Under the pieces are notes generated by a model that had not been told where the DNA came from, ran no database searches, and saw only the letters and a list, made by a program, of their open reading frames with translations. This document shows, one piece after another, positions 42,759-56,301 of a stretch of DNA of 64,000 nucleotides. Within the stretch, counting starts at the first letter, position 1. Every line of letters starts with the position of its first letter. The DNA is taken from the NCBI RefSeq assembly GCF_001742185.1, contig NZ_CP015750.1:4526001-4590000 (forward strand), given 5' to 3'. Origin of the DNA: Pectobacterium wasabiae CFBP 3304. Lineage in GTDB: Bacteria > Pseudomonadota > Gammaproteobacteria > Enterobacterales > Enterobacteriaceae. Position numbers and translations under genes: made by a program.

Positions 42759-42835
42759 GCGTTCATAGCTCAGTTGGTTAGAGCACCACCTTGACATGGT
42801 GGGGGTCGTTGGTTCGAGTCCAATTGAACGCACCA
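42759..42835 (+). tRNA. tRNA-Val (anticodon GAC)
   Basis: The 77-base gene folds as a cloverleaf: acceptor GCGTTCA/TGAACGC, D-loop AGTTGGTTAGA, anticodon stem ACCACC/GGTGGG-type with loop TTGACAT, T-arm GGTTCGAGTCC, discriminator A and encoded CCA. The anticodon GAC reads valine codons. It corresponds to E. coli valV/valW, which are tandem there; only one copy is here. Confidence 0.97.
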
Positions 42836-42941
42836 TTTTTTGCTTTTCCCTCTTTTACTCCTTACTTATTCCCCATTCTTTGATGCAACAAACACCGTCA
42901 TTCACAACAATCTGTTAGTTCATATCTTTTACTGCGCCCAG

Positions 42942-47617: not shown

Positions 47618-50600
47618 TTATCCCTGATACTCAATCACCACCACGCACTGCCCGGCACGAACCGATGCGCCGGGCTGGCAGCGAATCTCTCGAACCCTGC
47701 CGCGCTGTGGCGATACAATCGGGATCTCCATTTTCATGGATTCAAGGATCATCAGCGTTTCTCCTTCAACCACCGTCTTACCCACCGCCGTAACGACCTG
47801 CCAGAGGTTGCCGGAAATGGGGCTTTCCACACCGACCTGCCCCGGTTGGATCGGCGCTTCGCTCGCGTCCTCAATTACCACATCCACGCTATCCGCCACC
47901 GATTGACCGGCAATACGCCAGCGCTCGCGTTCCGCTTCAAACGCCGCCCGTTGGCGCACGCGGAATGTCTCGATCTCTTCCGCTTCCCGCGACAGGAAAT
48001 CCTGATAGGCGTTTAGCACCAGTTCACTGTGTTCGATCCGTAGCGGGTAACGCCCTAAGGGGAAATCCCGTCGGATGGATAACAGTTCATCGGCCGATAC
48101 CGGATAAAAGCGAATTTGGTCGAAGAAACGCAGCAGCCACGGCTTGCCGTTAAAGGCGTCAACGCCGCGATAGCGATCCCACATTTGCAGCGTGCGCCCG
48201 ACAAACTGGTAGCCACCCGGTCCTTCCATGCCATAAACACACAGGTAAGCGCCACCAATACCTACCGAGTTTTCCGCCGTCCAGGTACGCGCTGGGTTAT
48301 ATTTGGTGGTGACTAAACGGTGGCGCGGATCCAGCGGTGTCGCAACGGGCGCACCAAGATAAACGTCGCCCAGCCCCATCACCAGATAGCTGGCATCAAA
48401 TACCGTGCGATACACCTCATCGAGATTATCCAGTTCGTTAATACGGCGGATAAACTCAAGGTTACTCGGGCACCAGGGCGCATCGCTGCGTACCGTGGTC
48501 ATGTATTTCTGAATCGCCAACTGGCAGGCGGGATCGTCCCAGGACAGCGGCAGATAAACCACTCGTGACGGTACAGTCAGATTTTTTTGCGTACAAACGG
48601 CAAGCCATAGCGAGGAAAGCACGTCTAACAGGTGCGATAGCACCAGCGTCTCTGGGCGATAGTGCACCTGCAACGAACGAATGCCCGGCGTGATATCAAT
48701 GATGCCATCCAGCGTCTGCTGTTCCAGCGCCAGCATTAGCGCATGAACGCGAAAACGCAGCGCCACGTCCAGTTCCGCCGCCCCCACTTCCAGCAATAGA
48801 TGGGTATCGCCAGACAGCCGTGCAACCAGCCGTTTATCCGCGTCACCGATATCCAATACCACTGGAGAAATGCGCACAGCAGGCGACCAATCGATGGCGA
48901 TAGGAACAAGCTGCTCCACCTCAGCATGACGCGCCAATGCCAGCGAACGCGCCGTGGCGAGATCGACGGGAATAAAGCGCACGCGATCGCCAGCATTAAG
49001 CTGCCCTAACGCCCACAGGTCGGCCTCGATCACCGTCACCGGACAAACAAAACCGCCCAGACTTGGGCCATCGGGCCCCAGAATGACCGGCATATCCCCC
49101 GTGAAATCCACCGCACCGATGGCATACGGGTTGTCGTGAATGTTCGAAGGATGCAACCCAGCCTCTCCACCGCTATCGCGAACCCATTCTGGTTTCGGCC
49201 CAATCAAGCGCACGCCAGTACGACTGGAGTTAAAATGCACTTCCCACTCGGTAGAAAGAAAGGTGTCCATATAGGCAGGTGTAAAATAGTCCGGTGCAGC
49301 ATGTGGACCATAAATTACGCGCAGTTCACGCACCGCAGGCAAGGTGGTGCGCAATGCGTCCGGCAGGCTGTCGCCGACGCGTCTGTCCGTCAGCGGAGCA
49401 AGGTGCAAGACATCCCCCGCCCGCAGCGCACGCCCGGCATGTCCGCCAAACTGCCCCAGCGTGAACGTGCTTTTACTACCAAGGTAATCTGGCACCTCAA
49501 TACCACCACGCAGGCAGAGATAGCTGCGTACACCCTGTTTCTGCATTGCCCCTAAACGCAACGTGGCACCGGCTGGTATCGCAAATAGGCGATCCATCGA
49601 GACGGGCTGACCATCTATCTCAATAGCGATAGTCGCCCCCGTAACAGCCGCCACCGCATCCGTGTTAAAACGCAATGTCGGCCCGTTCATTGTGATCTCC
49701 AGCGCAGCCGTTCCCGCTGGATTTCCCACTAATCGATTCCCTAAACGCAGCGCGCGATCGTCCATCGGACCCGACGGTGGCACGCCGACCGACCAGTATC
49801 CAAGACGTCCTGGGTAATCCTGTACAGTGGTTTGCGTACCCGCACTCACCACTTCGCAGGTTGTCGCCTTATAGGCCAGCGCATCAAGACAGCGCGTCCA
49901 CGGCTGGCCGCGGGTAAACGGTTCTGCCGCCAGAATCTGACGCAGGTAGTCACGGTTGTGTTCCACACCGTAGAGTCGCGTGTCCGCCAATGCTCGATCC
50001 AGCACAGCCATTGCCTGCTCACGGGTCGGTGCGCAGGCGATGATCTTCGCCAGCATCGGGTCAAAAAACGGGGGGATGTCACACCCGGCCGTCACCCAAG
50101 TATCGATGCGCAGGCGGTGTCCTTCTGACGTGGGGAATTCGACTTCCGTCAATAATCCCGGTGACGGTTGGAATTGTTTGCCCGGATCTTCAGCGTACAG
50201 ACGCGCCTGAATCGCATGCCCCTGAGGATTCAGTTGAGCAGCCAGTTCGCGCAGCGGCGGCAGATCCCCTGCGGCCAGTTCAATCATCCAACGCACCAGA
50301 TCCACGCCCCAGACCTGCTCCGTTACGCCGTGCTCAACCTGTAGGCGCGTGTTGACTTCAAGAAAATAAAAACGGTCGGTCGCACTGTCGTAGACGAACT
50401 CCACCGTCCCCGCACTGCGGTAATTCACCGCCTGCGCCAGACTGATTGCCGCAGAACACAGTGCGTCAGCGACGCCGTCCGGCAGATTGGGCGCAGGCGT
50501 TTCTTCAATGACTTTCTGGTTACGACGCTGTACCGAGCAGTCCCGAACCCCCAGCGCCAGCACGTCGCCCTGACCATCACCAAAAATCTGTACCTCAAGA

Positions 50601-51220
50601 TGCCGGGCGCGTTCGATATATTTTTCAATGAAAACACCCGCATCGCTGAAATTGTTCTGTCCCAGCCGCTTTACCGTGTCAAACGCCTCGGACAGTTCCG
50701 TGGCGCTGTAGCAGACGCGCATTCCAATCCCACCGCCGCCCGCCGTGCTTTTGAGCATGACCGGGTAGCCAATCTCTGCCGCCGCGCACAGAGCAGCATC
50801 AATATTTTCCAGCAGCTCGGTGCCTTCCAGCAGCGGAACGTGGTACTTTTTCGCCAGCGCCCGTGCGGTATGTTTTAAGCCGAACACACGCAACTGCTGC
50901 GGTGTCGGCCCAACAAAGGCAATCTGCGCCGCTTCACAGGCTTCGGCAAACGCCGCATTCTCAGACAGAAAACCATATCCCGGATGGATGGCCTGCGCCC
51001 CACTACGCTGCGCCGCCGATAAAATTTTCGCGACATCCAGATAGGTATGTGCCGCCGCGCCCTCTCCCAGACTAATCGCTTCATCGGCATCCTGAATATG
51101 CAGGCTGCTGATATCAGCATCAGAGTAGACCGCGACGCCACGGACGTTCATCTCACGCAATGAACGCAGAATACGGCACGCAATCGCACCACGGTTAGCA
51201 ATCAGAAGTGTATCGAACAT
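47618..51220 (-). CDS. Biotin-dependent guanidine carboxylase (urea carboxylase family)
   Basis: This 1200-residue multidomain enzyme has, in order, biotin carboxylase (FDTLLIANRGAIACRILRSL; MLKSTAGGGGIGMRV; FLEVNTRLQVEHGVTEQVWG), the two KipI/KipA-like (DUF213-type) carboxyltransferase domains (residues about 470-1050) and a biotinyl domain with ILESMKMEIPIV near the C-terminus. Annotation pipelines call it urea carboxylase. The operon is controlled by a guanidine-I riboswitch and includes cgdA/cgdB, the pattern of enzymes shown to carboxylate guanidine, so guanidine is the preferred substrate. No amidase domain is fused. Its start has only a weak ribosome site and lies 9 bases after a degenerate upstream frame. 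Confidence 0.88.
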   Translation of the reverse strand: MFDTLLIANRGAIACRILRSLREMNVRGVAVYSDADISSLHIQDADEAISLGEGAAAHTYLDVAKILSAAQRSGAQAIHPGYGFLSENAAFAEACEAAQIAFVGPTPQQLRVFGLKHTARALAKKYHVPLLEGTELLENIDAALCAAAEIGYPVMLKSTAGGGGIGMRVCYSATELSEAFDTVKRLGQNNFSDAGVFIEKYIERARHLEVQIFGDGQGDVLALGVRDCSVQRRNQKVIEETPAPNLPDGVADALCSAAISLAQAVNYRSAGTVEFVYDSATDRFYFLEVNTRLQVEHGVTEQVWGVDLVRWMIELAAGDLPPLRELAAQLNPQGHAIQARLYAEDPGKQFQPSPGLLTEVEFPTSEGHRLRIDTWVTAGCDIPPFFDPMLAKIIACAPTREQAMAVLDRALADTRLYGVEHNRDYLRQILAAEPFTRGQPWTRCLDALAYKATTCEVVSAGTQTTVQDYPGRLGYWSVGVPPSGPMDDRALRLGNRLVGNPAGTAALEITMNGPTLRFNTDAVAAVTGATIAIEIDGQPVSMDRLFAIPAGATLRLGAMQKQGVRSYLCLRGGIEVPDYLGSKSTFTLGQFGGHAGRALRAGDVLHLAPLTDRRVGDSLPDALRTTLPAVRELRVIYGPHAAPDYFTPAYMDTFLSTEWEVHFNSSRTGVRLIGPKPEWVRDSGGEAGLHPSNIHDNPYAIGAVDFTGDMPVILGPDGPSLGGFVCPVTVIEADLWALGQLNAGDRVRFIPVDLATARSLALARHAEVEQLVPIAIDWSPAVRISPVVLDIGDADKRLVARLSGDTHLLLEVGAAELDVALRFRVHALMLALEQQTLDGIIDITPGIRSLQVHYRPETLVLSHLLDVLSSLWLAVCTQKNLTVPSRVVYLPLSWDDPACQLAIQKYMTTVRSDAPWCPSNLEFIRRINELDNLDEVYRTVFDASYLVMGLGDVYLGAPVATPLDPRHRLVTTKYNPARTWTAENSVGIGGAYLCVYGMEGPGGYQFVGRTLQMWDRYRGVDAFNGKPWLLRFFDQIRFYPVSADELLSIRRDFPLGRYPLRIEHSELVLNAYQDFLSREAEEIETFRVRQRAAFEAERERWRIAGQSVADSVDVVIEDASEAPIQPGQVGVESPISGNLWQVVTAVGKTVVEGETLMILESMKMEIPIVSPQRGRVREIRCQPGASVRAGQCVVVIEYQG

Positions 51221-51229
51221 ACGCTAGAC

Positions 51230-51472
51230 TCATGCAAGGGCAGGTCGTCCCGCCAAAATGCGATCCGCATGATGGTCGTCCATCGCGGTAACGGTCAAAT
51301 GATGTAGAGGCGTGCTACCACACCGGAATTATCAGGCTTTGTCAGGCGGAGAACGGTTCGTCGACGGCAGAAAATACCGGTTAGCTCTCGCCTCCAATGC
51401 GCTCACCAGCCACGCTTTCATGCACTGCCATCGCGTGTGTTTTTCACGGCAACGATCCGGCGTCAGTTCCAT
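51230..51472 (-). pseudogene. Interrupted reading frame between cgdB and the carboxylase
   Basis: An ATG at 51472 overlaps the cgdB stop region and is preceded by GGAGGTGCTGAT, an excellent ribosome site. It reads 46 residues ([20 protein letters not shown]..) to stops at 51332-51334 and 51329-51331. The same frame then stays open for 32 more codons (..HHLTVTAMDDHHADRILAGR..) to a stop at 51230, just before the carboxylase ATG. This looks like a small gene broken by stop codons, or a genuine 46-residue peptide. I do not recognise a family. Its loss could weaken translational coupling to the carboxylase. Confidence 0.45.
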
Positions 51473-52098
51473 ATCAGCACCTCCGCAGGCGTCGGGTTCC
51501 AGCCGTTACACGGGTTGTTAAGCTGCGGACAGTTGGAAATCAGTACGATGACATCCGTTTCGGCGCGTAGCTCTACGTATTTTCCCGGCGCGGAAATGCC
51601 ATCCTCAAAGGTCAGCCCGCCTTCTGCCGTTACCGGCACGTTCATAAAGAAGTTAATGTTCGCACCAATATCTTTCTTGTTCAGACGACCATCGTGCAGA
51701 CAGGCACAAAGAAAATTGTCACGGCAACTGTGCATGTAGCGTCGGTCGAGCGCATAGCGCACGGTATTGCTCTCCTGCGCACAGGCACCACCCAGGGTGT
51801 CATGCCGACCACAGGTATCAGCGACGATTGTCAACAACGGATTACCGAGATTGGAGAACAGCACGCTGCCCGTCGTCAGGTAGACGCTATTCTGGCGGCG
51901 CAGCGTGCGCTGTGGATCGTAACGTTCGCGTGGGTCATCAACGCGATAGAACAGCGTATCCACCGCCTGGTTACCTTCCAAATCCAGCAGTCGCAGCGTC
52001 TGACCTTGCTTGACCTCAAACAGATAGGGTTCTCCGGCAGGGATCACATGACGGAAGACCGCGTCTTCGGCTATTTTATTGCTGGCAATTAACGTCAT
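51463..52098 (-). CDS. cgdB: Carboxyguanidine deiminase subunit CgdB (DUF1989, urea carboxylase-associated)
   Basis: This 211-residue DUF1989-family protein shows [60 protein letters not shown] and the metal-site-like [17 protein letters not shown] and [12 protein letters not shown]. Such proteins were long called urea carboxylase-associated proteins; in guanidine-utilising bacteria the pair forms carboxyguanidine deiminase, giving allophanate plus ammonia. ATG 52098 follows AAGGAGG. It lies 11 bases after cgdA, so a complex is likely. Confidence 0.85.
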
Positions 52099-52109: not shown

Positions 52110-52856
52110 TTATAGATAACCGCGTTCGGTATTGTGAAACGCGCGTGCATTTTCCTCACGGAACTCACGGCAGTATTTGGCGACATCCTCACCTTCTGTT
52201 CGGCTCCAGGTGAGCGAGATCGGACGCGGCGCATATATCGGGTTAGGATCCATCGGGTGTTGCAAGGCAGTCAGCACCACCAGCGTGTCCATCGGTGCAT
52301 ACAGCTCGATGTAGTCGCCCGCCTGAGAATGATTGCTGTGAAAGTGAAACTGTCCTTGCGCATCCACCGTGACTTTGCTGAACAGGTTGATCGTCATCAG
52401 CAGATCTTGCAGATTGAGATTCCATTTCCCCATTTCGACCAGCAGGTTATCCATCCCGTTACGGAAAAAACCGTTACGCAGTTCCTGATAACGCCCCTGC
52501 CCGTATTTCTCATGCACCTCCTGCGCATTGAGTACGCCACCCATGCTGTCGTGCCAACCGCAGGTGTCGGTAACGATCGCCGCCAGTACCCGTCCCATGT
52601 CGGAATAGAGACAGTGTCCAACCGTTAATTTGGCGGTGTGTTGTCCTTTCAGAGTGTCCGGCAGGTTTAACCGTTCGCTAGTCTGGTGCGCGTTAAACAT
52701 CAGCAGACCCACATTGCCGCTGCCTTCCACATCGGTGATCCGCAGAATCTGTCCGCGCTTGAGAATGAAGGAAGTATGGCCTCCGCCCGGTACCGTTTCT
52801 TCATCAAATGTTGACCGGCCTGCCGATGTATTTTTCGATATCTGTATCTCTGTCAT
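52110..52856 (-). CDS. cgdA: Carboxyguanidine deiminase subunit CgdA (DUF1989, urea carboxylase-associated)
   Basis: This 248-residue paralogue of CgdB shares the DUF1989 plan: [65 protein letters not shown] and [16 protein letters not shown]. The [17 protein letters not shown] motif in both subunits is likely to bind the metal. The ATG at 52856 follows GGAGC; a GTG three bases earlier is an alternative. Ten bases separate it from the ATPase gene upstream. Confidence 0.85.
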
Positions 52857-52869
52857 CACAGAAAGCTCC

Positions 52870-53652
52870 TTAAATGGGGGATGTCATCGCGCTAACAGCA
52901 GGAGGCAGCGCACGCTGGCGCGTGGCGAGACGCGCCTGATTCAGCGGGATGTCATAAGTAATACGTGCGCCATAGGCTTCCGGCGCATGGGGATCGACGC
53001 GCACTTTGTCGAACACCAGCAAACGCGTGCCGAGGTGGAACCCTTCAGGCAAATCGTGGGTAACCATAAAGACCGTTAAGCGGGTTTCCCGCCACAGCTC
53101 CAGCAGCAGGGAATGCATATCGCCGCGAATGCCGGGATCCAGCGCCCCAAAGGGTTCATCGAGCAGCAGGATGCGCGGCTGGACAATAAACGCCTGCGCA
53201 ATCGCGAGCCGCTGCTGCATCCCGCCGGAAAGCTGATTCGGATATTTGTGCATCGCCTGTCCAAGCCCAACACGTTCCAGCATGCGAGCCGCACTGCTCC
53301 GCACTTCTTGCTTGCCTCGTCCAAACAGCCTGCCGAGCCAAGGAGAACGTGGTATCTCCAGCCCAATCACCACGTTTTCCAGCACGGTTAAATGTGGAAA
53401 AACCGAATAGCGCTGAAACACCACGCCGCGGCTGACATCCGGTTCGGCGGGTAGCGGTTTCCCTTCGAGCCGCACTTCACCACGACTGGGGGGTTCCTGC
53501 CCCAGCAGCAGGCGCAAAAAGGTGGATTTACCACAGCCGGATGCCCCGACCATCGTGCAGAATTCCCCCTCCTCAACGTTCAGGTTGAGCCGTTCCAGCA
53601 CCACATGGTCGCCGTATTCTTGCCAGATGTTATCGATCTCGATAAAACTCAT
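52870..53652 (-). CDS. ABC transporter ATPase of nitrate/taurine type (guanidine uptake candidate)
   Basis: This 260-residue nucleotide-binding protein has Walker A GASGCGKST, Q-loop, signature LSGGMQQRLAIAQAF, Walker B ILLLDEPFGALD and the switch His in FMVTHDLPEGFHLG. It belongs to the NrtD/SsuB/TauB class. Its ATG overlaps the permease stop. Encoded in a riboswitch-controlled guanidine operon, it probably powers uptake of guanidine or a guanidine-releasing compound. Confidence 0.9.
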   Translation of the reverse strand: MSFIEIDNIWQEYGDHVVLERLNLNVEEGEFCTMVGASGCGKSTFLRLLLGQEPPSRGEVRLEGKPLPAEPDVSRGVVFQRYSVFPHLTVLENVVIGLEIPRSPWLGRLFGRGKQEVRSSAARMLERVGLGQAMHKYPNQLSGGMQQRLAIAQAFIVQPRILLLDEPFGALDPGIRGDMHSLLLELWRETRLTVFMVTHDLPEGFHLGTRLLVFDKVRVDPHAPEAYGARITYDIPLNQARLATRQRALPPAVSAMTSPI

Positions 53653-54464
53653 GTTTTACTTTCCTCTGACCACGGGAACCAGCGGCGATGCAGCCAACGC
53701 AGTGCCATATCCATCAGCCATGCCAGCAGCGTGATCCACACCACGTAAGGCAGAATCACGTCCATCGCCAGATAGCGACGTACCAGAAAGATGCGGTAGC
53801 CAAGCCCCGCCGTTGCTGAAATCGCTTCGGCGGAAATCAGGAACAGCCACGCCGCCCCCAGCAGAAGCCGCAGGGAAATCAGCAGCCGCGACAGTAACTG
53901 CGGCAGGATGACGCGCAACACCACGATCCAACTGTTCGCGCCCAGCGTTTGTGCTTTGATCAGCATTTCCTGTGGGATATTACGGGCGCGCTGTTCGAGA
54001 TCGCGCGCCAGCATCGGCGTGACGCCAATGACGATCAGCATCACTTTCGAGAGTTCATCCAGCCCGAAGACGATGAAAAGAATGGGTAAAATCGCCAGCG
54101 GTGGGATCATCGACAGCACGGTCATCAACGGCGAGAGCGAGGCACGGAACAGCGGAAAAGCCCCCGCCGCAATCCCAAACAGCAGACTCAACAGGCTGGC
54201 GATCCCCAGTCCCAGCGCAAGACGAACCAGACTGGCCTGCGTATCCAGCCAGAACAGGTAGTCACCGCTACGTTTGTCTTCGGTAAATGCCATGCGCTGA
54301 ATTGCCTCGGCCATTTGCCCAAGACTTGGCAGCAGTTTGTCATTGGGATTGGCTTCCAGCCGCAGTGCCGACCCCACGAGGTACAGCACCAGCAGCACGG
54401 TAAACGGCAGCAGGACAAGCAGCAGCCGTCCGCCTCGGCTGGGGGAGCGATTGATCAAGCGCAC
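53649..54464 (-). CDS. ABC transporter permease of nitrate/taurine type (guanidine uptake candidate)
   Basis: This 271-residue binding-protein-dependent permease has about six helices and a C-terminal half with the EAA-type loop (TVLSMIPPLAILPILFIVFG, EMLIKAQTLGANSWIVVLRV, ILPQLLSRLLISLRLLLGAA). The start is GTG 54464 after GGAGAG. It overlaps the ATPase gene by 4 bases and follows the binding-protein gene by 23 bases. Confidence 0.9.
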   Translation of the reverse strand: MRLINRSPSRGGRLLLVLLPFTVLLVLYLVGSALRLEANPNDKLLPSLGQMAEAIQRMAFTEDKRSGDYLFWLDTQASLVRLALGLGIASLLSLLFGIAAGAFPLFRASLSPLMTVLSMIPPLAILPILFIVFGLDELSKVMLIVIGVTPMLARDLEQRARNIPQEMLIKAQTLGANSWIVVLRVILPQLLSRLLISLRLLLGAAWLFLISAEAISATAGLGYRIFLVRRYLAMDVILPYVVWITLLAWLMDMALRWLHRRWFPWSEESKT

Positions 54465-54487: not shown

Positions 54488-55546
54488 TCAGAGTTTGTTC
54501 TCTGCGGCCAGACGCACAAAGGTGTCGTCAAAGCGCAGTTTTACATTGGCGCTGTCGCCTTGTGTAACCTGACCAGGGAACGTTATGCCGATAAAATCCG
54601 CACTCTGTGCACCAGTGCCGAGCAACCCTTTATCAAAGGAGAAATCTGCGACGCGTTTCATGGTGTTCGGGAGATCGGCGCTGGTCAGAAACGCCAGGTT
54701 GTCCTGCGCGGAATAAAACAGATGGGTGGTTTTTAGCTGTGCCTGATAGCCTGCTAAATCGGTGCCGGAGGCCGCAGCCATCGATTCCAGCGCCGGCTTG
54801 TCGCCCGCCTTCATTAGCGCCATCATTTCAAACCAGGCTCCGGCCAGCGCTTTACCCAGCGCCGGATTCTCTTGCAGCGTCTGCGTGTTCACGACCATCA
54901 TGTCGATCAGTTCACCGGGGATCTGTCCGGACTGAAAGACTTCCGAGATATCCGGCTGGCTTTTAATCGCGGAAAGCTGCGGGTTCCAGGCGACAGCCGC
55001 CTGTACGCTGCGGGTAGCGAAAGCAGCAACAATATCGGCATCTGACGTATTGACGACCGTGACATCCCGCTCCCGTAGCCCGGCCGTTTCCAGACCGCGC
55101 ACTAGCAGGTAATGGGAAACAGAGAGTTCAGGCAGGTTGACCTTCATTCCGCGCAAGTCGCCCAGCGTTTTCCCTTTGCCTTTGAGCACGATACCGTCAT
55201 TGCCTGCGGAGAAACTGCCAAGCAGCAGCGCCGTGGTATCCACACCGCCCGCCGCCGGAATGGTCAACGCATCCATGTTGGTCATCGTGCAGCCGTCAAA
55301 CTGTCCGGCGGTGTATTGATTGATCGACTCGACGTAGTCGTTAAGCTGGGTAACCTTAATTTTGATGCCGTACTTGTCGGCCCATTTATCGATAATGCCC
55401 TGCGTGCCGATGACGCCCCACGGCATCCACCCGGCATAGATAGTCCAGCACACGTTGAATTGCGTTTTAGGCGCTGCCTGTGAAGGGAAACTCAGCAGCG
55501 CTGAGAGACTGAGGACGCAAACGCCCAGTAAACGAGATAGGTTCAT
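54488..55546 (-). CDS. Periplasmic binding protein of nitrate/taurine-type ABC transporter (urea carboxylase-linked)
   Basis: This 352-residue NMT1/TauA-like binding protein has a signal peptide ending LLSFPSQAAPKTQ. Motifs include VCWTIYAGWMPWGVIGTQGI, GTMTN-like DGCTMTNMDALTIPAAGGVD and RSVQAAVAWNPQLSAI. It is the first gene of the operon, with ATG 55546 after CCGGAGG, 21 bases past the riboswitch terminator. Family members bind small anions or amines; guanidine or a derivative is inferred here from the riboswitch. Confidence 0.9.
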   Translation of the reverse strand: MNLSRLLGVCVLSLSALLSFPSQAAPKTQFNVCWTIYAGWMPWGVIGTQGIIDKWADKYGIKIKVTQLNDYVESINQYTAGQFDGCTMTNMDALTIPAAGGVDTTALLLGSFSAGNDGIVLKGKGKTLGDLRGMKVNLPELSVSHYLLVRGLETAGLRERDVTVVNTSDADIVAAFATRSVQAAVAWNPQLSAIKSQPDISEVFQSGQIPGELIDMMVVNTQTLQENPALGKALAGAWFEMMALMKAGDKPALESMAAASGTDLAGYQAQLKTTHLFYSAQDNLAFLTSADLPNTMKRVADFSFDKGLLGTGAQSADFIGITFPGQVTQGDSANVKLRFDDTFVRLAAENKL

Positions 55547-55567
55547 GCCAGACCTCCGGTTGAGTAG

Positions 55568-55613
55568 GAAAAAAGCGGGAACAGCGCGACACCATGGGTG
55601 TTGCTGTCTCCCG
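55568..55613 (-). terminator. Attenuator terminator of the guanidine riboswitch
   Basis: On the minus strand a long imperfect stem (CGGGAGACAGC..GCTGTTCCCG, with AACACC/GGTGT above) ends in GCTTTTTT (55569-55576). Its 5' arm overlaps the conserved CCCGGGAG of the riboswitch, so ligand binding should block the hairpin and allow read-through. Confidence 0.85.
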
Positions 55614-55700
55614 GGCTTTTGTCCCGCCGTGTAACCTCAACTGGAGGTCGCCAGCTCTCGGACCAGACATCCATATTGCATGGATCGGAACCCTAGCCAG
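55606..55700 (-). ncRNA. Guanidine-I riboswitch (ykkC type)
   Basis: The minus strand carries the hallmark ykkC segments in order: GCTAGGGTTCCG, GTCTGGTCCGAGAGCTGGCG, an arm closed by ACCTCCAG/TTGAGGT, and ACACGGCGGGACAAAAGCCC with GGGAG after it. These form the paired stems that bind guanidinium. An intrinsic terminator overlaps the 3' end, giving an ON switch for the transporter, deiminase and carboxylase genes. Confidence 0.93.
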
Positions 55701-55749
55701 CTATTCAGGTTGTTCAGCGCCCTATGTGGTGCCGTCCCGAATAGATAAA

Positions 55750-55766
55750 AGCAAAATGCGTGCCAG
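55750..55766 (-). promoter_or_regulatory. Sigma-54 (RpoN) promoter for the guanidine operon
   Basis: CTGGCACGCATTTTGCT on the minus strand fits the sigma-54 consensus TGGCACG-N4-TTGC(A/T) at every fixed position, with exactly 10 bases between GG (-24) and GC (-12). Transcription would start near 55740, about 40 bases before the riboswitch. This predicts control by an enhancer-binding protein such as NtrC; no convincing NtrC site was found upstream. Confidence 0.75.
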
Positions 55767-55872
55767 CACTAGAAATACCGCTACGGCTGGCTGTGTGCAG
55801 GGAAGAATGCCGTTCTCGCGTCATCACGGTGCAGTAGCACAATGAACGCGCCTCACGGCAGTGCAGAGAGGG

Positions 55873-56301
55873 TTAGCCGATACGGGGTTTATGTGCAGAA
55901 TCGCTCGCCGCTATTTTTTCCAGCAGCGCACTAAACATGGCTTGTTCATCAGAGGACAGCGCTTGCAGCATCTGCGCTTCAATGTGCTTTTCCTGATGCA
56001 GAAAAACTTGCGTAAACGCGATGCCTTTATCAGACAAACTGAGCCACACGCTGCGGCCATCATCTGGGTTATCGATCTTGCGGACATAATCGCGTTTAAC
56101 CAGTTCCGCCACCATACGGGTGATTTGCGCCTTATCCCGACCCACCGTTTTCGCCAGCAATTGGGGCGTAATCCGCCCTGCCGCCGCGATGATCTTACAT
56201 AAACGAATGTGCACGACATCCAGATTGATGTCGTGCGCTTTCATCTGTTCCTGCATCTGTGCCTTATAGCTTTCTAATAGGGTAAAAAGGGCTTTCATCA
56301 T
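55873..56301 (-). CDS. MarR-family transcriptional regulator
   Basis: This 142-residue winged-helix protein has the MarR plan: an N-terminal dimerisation helix (LFTLLESYKAQMQEQMKAHD), helix-turn-helix GRITPQLLAKTVGRDKAQIT, RMVAELVKRDYVRKIDNPDD (wing with DGRSVW) and C-terminal helices. ATG 56301 or 56298 are both possible. It is divergent from the DUF3861 gene, with two palindromes between, so it probably regulates that gene and itself. The ligand is unknown. Confidence 0.85.
   Translation of the reverse strand: MMKALFTLLESYKAQMQEQMKAHDINLDVVHIRLCKIIAAAGRITPQLLAKTVGRDKAQITRMVAELVKRDYVRKIDNPDDGRSVWLSLSDKGIAFTQVFLHQEKHIEAQMLQALSSDEQAMFSALLEKIAASDSAHKPRIG

Follow-up and report, generated by a model that had tools for sequence, protein, structure and literature searches.

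A sigma-54 promoter and a guanidine-I riboswitch in series appear to place a double lock on a guanidine-uptake operon of Pectobacterium wasabiae

Organization of the locus

The stretch of DNA analysed here, referred to as the window, comprises 64,000 nucleotides of the 5.04-Mb genome of the plant-associated bacterium Pectobacterium wasabiae CFBP 3304 (contig NZ_CP015750.1, positions 4,526,001 to 4,590,000). An operon on its minus strand encodes a presumed guanidine ABC importer, two carboxyguanidine deiminase subunits and a carboxylase. The nearest named relatives of the first gene, among the best 80 of 580 matches, are Pectobacterium sequences with 96-98% identity. Read along the minus strand, a MarR-type gene is followed by NtrC-like boxes, a sigma-54 element, a guanidine-I riboswitch, its terminator and the gene for the substrate-binding protein. 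The features are listed below in this order, by position within the window.

55873-56301, minus: MarR-type gene, upstream neighbour co-directional with the operon (family matches)
55849-55865, minus: NtrC-like box TGCACTGCCGTGAGGCG, 9/14, with a block TGCACTGCCGTGA conserved in Pectobacterium
55836-55852, minus: weak NtrC-like box GGCGCGTTCATTGTGCT, half-site score 7.5/9, outside the best two by the 14-position score
55817-55833, minus: NtrC-like box TGCACCGTGATGACGCG, 10/14; 19 Pectobacterium loci conserve its TGCACC half
55750-55765, minus: sigma-54 (-24/-12) promoter element TGGCACGCATTTTGCT, GG-N10-GC, 12/12 scored consensus positions
55606-55707, minus: guanidine-I (ykkC) riboswitch aptamer (RF00442, 97.3 bits, cut-off 63)
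55569-55613, minus: intrinsic terminator, its 5' arm overlapping the aptamer 3' end; CGGGAGACAGC pairs with GCTGTTCCCG, followed by T6
54488-55546, minus: substrate-binding protein of the presumed guanidine ABC importer (TIGR03427, 563 bits; named a putative urea ABC substrate-binding protein in NCBIfam)
53649-54464, minus: ABC permease (PF00528)
52870-53652, minus: ABC ATPase (PF00005)
52110-52859, minus: carboxyguanidine deiminase subunit UAAP1, DUF1989 (TIGR03425, 320 bits; PF09347)
51463-52098, minus: carboxyguanidine deiminase subunit UAAP2, DUF1989 (TIGR03424, 331 bits; PF09347)
51240-51287, minus: guanidine-II (mini-ykkC) riboswitch inside the operon (RF01068, 38.5 bits, cut-off 32)
47618-51220, minus: carboxylase, probably of the guanidine type, annotated as urea carboxylase (TIGR02712, 1845 bits; Asp705 near the substrate-selector position)

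Elsewhere in the window, an Rfam match to HPnc0260 at 42797-42933 (minus) lies opposite a tRNA gene at 42759-42832 (plus) and is likely a by-product of tRNA antisense sequence in the model.

Promoter and activator

Sigma-54 elements were scored at 12 positions, using the spacing GG-N10-GC with TGGCACG / TTGCW. The consensus element that an initial annotation of this DNA had placed on the minus strand matches at all 12 positions, and its coordinates were correct within about one base. It predicts a transcription start near 55739, 32 nt ahead of the guanidine-I aptamer, and RpoN is encoded in the genome (profile match, 524 bits). The pattern TGGCACGNNNNTTGCW occurs in the genome only at the window's site, compared with two occurrences of the reversed pattern used as a control. 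Base composition predicts 0.016 matches per 64 kb and 1.3 per genome, so that a lone motif proves little; it is placement and conservation that carry weight.

Relatives were picked by similarity to the first gene of the operon, irrespective of riboswitch and promoter. The best 80 of 580 range across Enterobacterales, Pseudomonas, Burkholderiales and one Thiorhodococcus; counts among them are not independent, since they include related sequences and two pairs of loci (L009/L010 and L038/L039) that each come from a single assembly. The initial annotation had proposed aligning the upstream region in related genomes, and every one of these 80 relatives proved to have a GG-N10-GC element that matches at 9-12 of the 12 positions, 203-298 nt ahead of the gene match, together with a guanidine-I motif. 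With elements placed against the aptamer automatically, a score of at least 10 within 130 nt of the aptamer was obtained in 79/81 loci (the window and the best 80 of 580), compared with 74/10,066 control windows drawn from the same loci; one of the 81 (L065) scored 6 through a misplaced aptamer, its actual element scoring 11. Among 65 loci dereplicated from the 80, the GG and GC are invariant because the search criterion sets them, and the remaining positions follow the consensus too (first T in 65/65, A of GGCA in 64/65). Within Pectobacterium, 25 genomes were searched, and all 19 that carry guanidine-I have an element of 10-12/12.

In loci from other classes of the phylum, for example L099, L107 and L111, the element lies just 26-27 nt before the aptamer, as it also does in L102, L108 and L112; at this distance transcription would start roughly at the first base of the aptamer.

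The operon could also draw on two sources of RNA, in which case basal transcript would come from a sigma-70 promoter or from transcription running on past the MarR-type gene, and the riboswitch would be the main control. In favour of this, the MarR-type gene precedes the operon on the same strand and has sigma-70-like matches ahead of it, and the scan listed no terminator-like site on that strand from the end of this gene (55873) to the riboswitch. However, the promoter scan listed no sigma-70-like promoter on the same strand between this gene and the guanidine-I riboswitch, and sigma-70-like scores above the aptamer in the 81 loci (mean 7.5) are similar to those of shuffles (7.6). A basal supply that leaves the riboswitch in charge is considered unlikely. 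A nearby sigma-70 promoter as the main driver was rejected on the same two results.

Upstream of the sigma-54 element, NtrC-like boxes were scored at 14 positions against the published NtrC box, TGCACCAnnnTGGTGCA, as given in the available text of its source (PMC8743547). Among the 65 dereplicated loci, a box of at least 10/14 lies 60-115 nt above the element in 53, compared with 3/65 in a control stretch of equal width farther upstream and 3.5% of shuffles that retain dinucleotide blocks only roughly. At a threshold of 11/14 or better the corresponding figures are 24/65, 1/65 and 0.4%. Single bases were shuffled in the controls for half-site scoring and for hairpins. Boxes in the relatives score up to 13/14, and their best mean positions are about -100, -80 and -68 from the element. 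Measured from the start, this is roughly -85 to -120, a usual range for an enhancer. The blocks TGCACTGCCGTGA and TGCACC are kept amid variable stretches in the 19 Pectobacterium genomes with guanidine-I among the 25 searched, and one Paraburkholderia relative (L067) combines an element of 11/12 with a box of 11/14.

The genome encodes NtrC (profile match, 807 bits), and we infer that it acts as the activator of the guanidine operon. With regard to membership of the NtrC regulon, the proposal of NtrC control in the initial annotation stands in part: the relatives carry positioned boxes at the frequency given above, whereas the window's own are weak, at 10/14 and 9/14 with the third weaker still. 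The imperfection of these boxes would also suit a different enhancer-binding protein as activator, in which case the first signal would not be nitrogen status, and several further proteins of the genome match part of the NtrC model strongly (169-394 bits). Against such a protein, the boxes are both enriched and positioned in relatives, the co-directional neighbour is of the MarR type and not of the enhancer-binding kind, and a similar Burkholderia operon is NtrC-dependent (PMC5491218). We hold an activator other than NtrC to be improbable.

The Burkholderia operon, I35_7283-7286 of B. cenocepacia H111, is compared here by its published description only, in the available part of the source: it encodes a related ABC periplasmic protein and a carboxylase, is described as serving urea utilisation in a text in which the word riboswitch does not appear, and is down in an ntrC mutant (PMC5491218). 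Its "urea carboxylase" gene has a log2 change of -6.0 in that mutant, the neighbours I35_7283 and 7285 are entered as "na(m)", and sigma-54 also regulates 95% of the genes whose transcription differed (PMC5491218). The available text of an NtrC study in P. stutzeri names urease and nitrate genes, and neither guanidine nor urea carboxylase (PMC8443478).

That the sigma-54 match arose by chance beside the riboswitch was rejected as extremely improbable: the genome-wide expectation and the two reversed matches allow for it, but the conservation in the best 80 of 580 relatives and the low rate in control windows contradict it.

Riboswitches

The guanidine-I riboswitch is present as a single copy in the genome. 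The initial annotation had described a ykkC riboswitch with a terminator on its 3' end, and the match to the family at 97.3 bits, with the conserved GGGAGA shared by both folds, agrees with that description. The terminator hairpin extends over about 55613-55576 with a predicted energy of about -20 kcal/mol and is followed by six T (55574-55569). The GGGAGA end of the aptamer forms the 5' arm of this hairpin, which makes the expression platform exclusive with the aptamer. A simple terminator scan did not list this terminator, probably owing to mismatches in the stem. The alternative between aptamer and terminator fits the usual mode of guanidine-I riboswitches, which is that of an ON-switch according to the available text of PMC12186494.

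A competing hairpin was found in 67/67 distinct leaders, but hairpins of -13 kcal/mol or better also form in 135/335 shuffles, so the mere presence of a hairpin is weak evidence. The U-tract behind it is more restricted, with 6-7 T of 9 in Pectobacterium and a tract present in many other Enterobacterales, whereas 27/31 distinct leaders outside Enterobacterales have at most 4 T of 9. The termination step therefore does not generalise beyond this order; elsewhere the off state may use something other than intrinsic termination. Most leaders of L043, L045-L054 and L056-L081 retain the hairpin with the U-tract mostly gone.

A guanidine-II riboswitch before the carboxylase gene (51240-51287, minus) is absent from the initial annotation. 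Its position implies a third, guanidine-dependent control step. In 27 Enterobacterales genomes with guanidine-I, compared by eye from match positions, guanidine-II lies 4.1-4.4 kb downstream in 20 and 6.8 kb downstream in one, and six have none. Guanidine carboxylases have been defined by Asp at TIGR02712 positions 701 and 956, in the available text of PMC11410670. In a pairwise alignment, which places the selector positions only approximately on the profile, the window's carboxylase has D705 where the second copy in the genome has Asn, and there is one further D/N difference, at D1015. If position 705 is the selector, the window's carboxylase is probably of the guanidine type and the distant one of the urea type.

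In one relative, Pectobacterium sp. CFBP8739 (L007), only a 258-residue piece of the carboxylase was matched, and the distance from the start of the first gene to guanidine-II is about 2 kb instead of 4.3 kb. The operon in this strain looks rearranged or deleted.

A pathway in two places

The downstream genes had been said to import guanidine and release its nitrogen. Importer, deiminase and carboxylase genes are indeed present, but the allophanate hydrolase is encoded outside the operon, so the release of nitrogen is incomplete within it. No allophanate hydrolase was found in the window or in seven named Pectobacterium loci (one of them, L007, with a broken-up carboxylase region), nor in several Erwinia and Pantoea loci. 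The sole copy in the genome above the family cut-off lies about 210 kb away at C1:4366009-4367808 (825 bits); a second match, at C1:2910705 (199 bits), is below threshold. The distant locus (L113:2400-7809, or C1:4362399-4367808) holds the allophanate hydrolase with the second, Asn-type carboxylase, and this urea operon also encodes a UrtA-type urea-binding protein and a protein that weakly matches a phosphonate-utilisation regulator model. A riboswitch at this locus was considered and rejected, as no Rfam match up to E 0.1 was found there.

All 24 Pectobacterium genomes that have the allophanate hydrolase gene carry a sigma-54-like element 56 nt before its start codon, scoring 10/12 in 20 and 9/12 in 4. 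An NtrC-like box of 10-11/14 is found at -89 in 22/24 of these loci; it sits in an inverted repeat with T-rich sequence behind, and may instead be the terminator of the gene above. Allophanate hydrolase is present in 19/19 Pectobacterium genomes with guanidine-I, and the single genome of the 25 that lacks it also lacks guanidine-I. Nitrogen control would, as judged from these promoters, switch on both halves of the pathway together.

Importers and exporters

Guanidine stresses cells and also serves them as a source of nitrogen, and its riboswitches are found ahead of exporters as well as importers. The search for guanidine-I riboswitches covered 299 genomes at the level of the phylum, 32 of which gave a match, and 197 at the level of the order, 27 of which did; all 64 distinct copies were scored. 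The next gene was classified, and an element was counted when it scored at least 10/12 within 130 nt of the aptamer, a level reached by 0.5% of shuffles. An element precedes 47/54 guanidine-I copies before import genes, namely 40/46 before a substrate-binding protein, 4/5 in permease-first arrangements and 3/3 before a second type of binding protein. Seven import-type copies have no qualifying element within that distance; L160 has one at -139 and L148 is a near miss. For other next genes the counts are 1/3 (deiminase-first), 0/1 (APC transporter) and 1/2 (unclassified).

The single guanidine-I copy before an SMR exporter has no element (0/1), nor do three guanidine-I-like matches before EamA-type genes (0/3; L141, L142 and L143). 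These three score 42.6-58.4 bits, short of the family cut-off, and may lie outside guanidine-I altogether; they are possibly ykkC relatives with another ligand. Among 47 guanidine-II loci, elements were found before 0/23 SMR exporters, 1/19 carboxylases and 1/5 others. This set includes L129, which is below the cut-off, and excludes one of 48 loci (L122) as too short; 16 of 46 order-level guanidine-II matches had no locus, of which the window's own was scored as L120 and the remaining 15 were left out. A separate observation is L119, in which a guanidine-II before a non-SMR gene has a sigma-54-like element of 11/12, 51 nt upstream.

Over all guanidine riboswitches before SMR exporters, the element is found in 0/24, and the difference from the importers (47/54) has a Fisher p of 3e-14 with related loci treated as independent. 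However, 23 of these 24 riboswitches are guanidine-II, so the contrast between import and export is confounded with riboswitch class. Within guanidine-I above the cut-off (47/54 vs 0/1) p is 0.15, which is not significant, and it becomes 0.0008 when the three weak EamA copies are added (0/4), related loci again being treated as independent in both. The initial annotation had reasoned that the promoter fits the use of guanidine as a nitrogen source rather than its detoxification; the association of the element with import genes is consistent with this, whereas the confounding with riboswitch class leaves the argument partial. On balance we lean towards the broader proposition that a sigma-54/NtrC promoter sorts the guanidine riboswitches of Pseudomonadota, such that importers are made only in nitrogen need and exporters whenever guanidine appears, and that in Pectobacterium the same signal couples the riboswitch operon to the urea operon.

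Proposed control of the operon

The AND logic put forward in the initial annotation is borne out by the anatomy of the locus, where a sigma-54 element and a guanidine-I ON-switch lie in series and are conserved in relatives. We think it likely that the operon is controlled in series by an NtrC/sigma-54 promoter, guanidine-I termination and guanidine-II, and that nitrogen control joins the distant allophanate hydrolase. Under nitrogen limitation, phosphorylated NtrC would bind at 55817-55865 and activate sigma-54 RNA polymerase at 55750-55765, giving RNA from about 55739. As expected from the riboswitch family and the sequence, without guanidine the 3' GGGAGA strand of the aptamer would join the terminator and transcription would stop near 55569; with guanidine, GGGAGA would be held in the aptamer and the polymerase would continue into the importer and deiminase genes. 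Guanidine-II would then gate translation of the carboxylase, as is known for its family. The allophanate product would be finished by the allophanate hydrolase about 210 kb away; since this enzyme is encoded behind a separate sigma-54-like promoter, nitrogen control would be what links both parts of the pathway.

The guanidine-uptake operon thus appears to be on only when nitrogen shortage and guanidine coincide, and this double lock seems to be common to many relatives. If so, gating of the import type by nitrogen would account for how cells avoid taking up guanidine that they do not need, and studies in ammonium-rich medium would capture only part of how import operons respond. The double lock would be testable in common laboratory strains.

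Relation to known systems

The nasFEDCBA promoter of Klebsiella oxytoca is under NtrC/sigma-54 control. Its leader likewise provides substrate-responsive antitermination in a nitrogen-assimilation operon (PMC7496416), with the difference that it is read by the protein NasR and the window's leader by an RNA aptamer; NtrC is not mentioned in the available text of that paper. The guanidine operon would be a version of the same plan, general nitrogen control first and substrate-specific attenuation second, with RNA in place of the sensor protein.

COG3665 is presumably the DUF1989 family. In this group, 102 genes of the alpha, beta and gamma classes have been predicted to be sigma-54-dependent, of which 59% are named urea carboxylase; this is a bulk prediction, and the word guanidine does not occur in the available text (PMC12316311). 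Sigma-54 control of these genes has thus already been predicted, and the combination of guanidine-I and guanidine-II in one operon is already published. Guanidine-I at the head and guanidine-II before the carboxylase have been described in Raoultella terrigena, Klebsiella michiganensis, Erwinia rhapontici and Vreelandella boliviensis, the same layout as in the window, and the available parts of these descriptions name neither sigma-54 nor NtrC control (PMC12186494; PMC12508155). Strong expression on guanidine relative to ammonium is given for Vreelandella in the available text; in this comparison the two signals change together. The available text of PMC12186494 sets the allophanate hydrolase beside the carboxylase, whereas it lies about 210 kb away in P. 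wasabiae and was not found beside the carboxylase in E. rhapontici (L011). The riboswitch in the available text of PMC12421884 is a ppGpp reporter and is irrelevant to guanidine control. No link between guanidine riboswitches and sigma-54 or NtrC was found among the papers listed from the open literature; it may be mentioned in primary papers on guanidine-I or guanidine use. Among the loci scored here, those of E. rhapontici, two Raoultella species and K. michiganensis carry a sigma-54-like element of 10-11/12.
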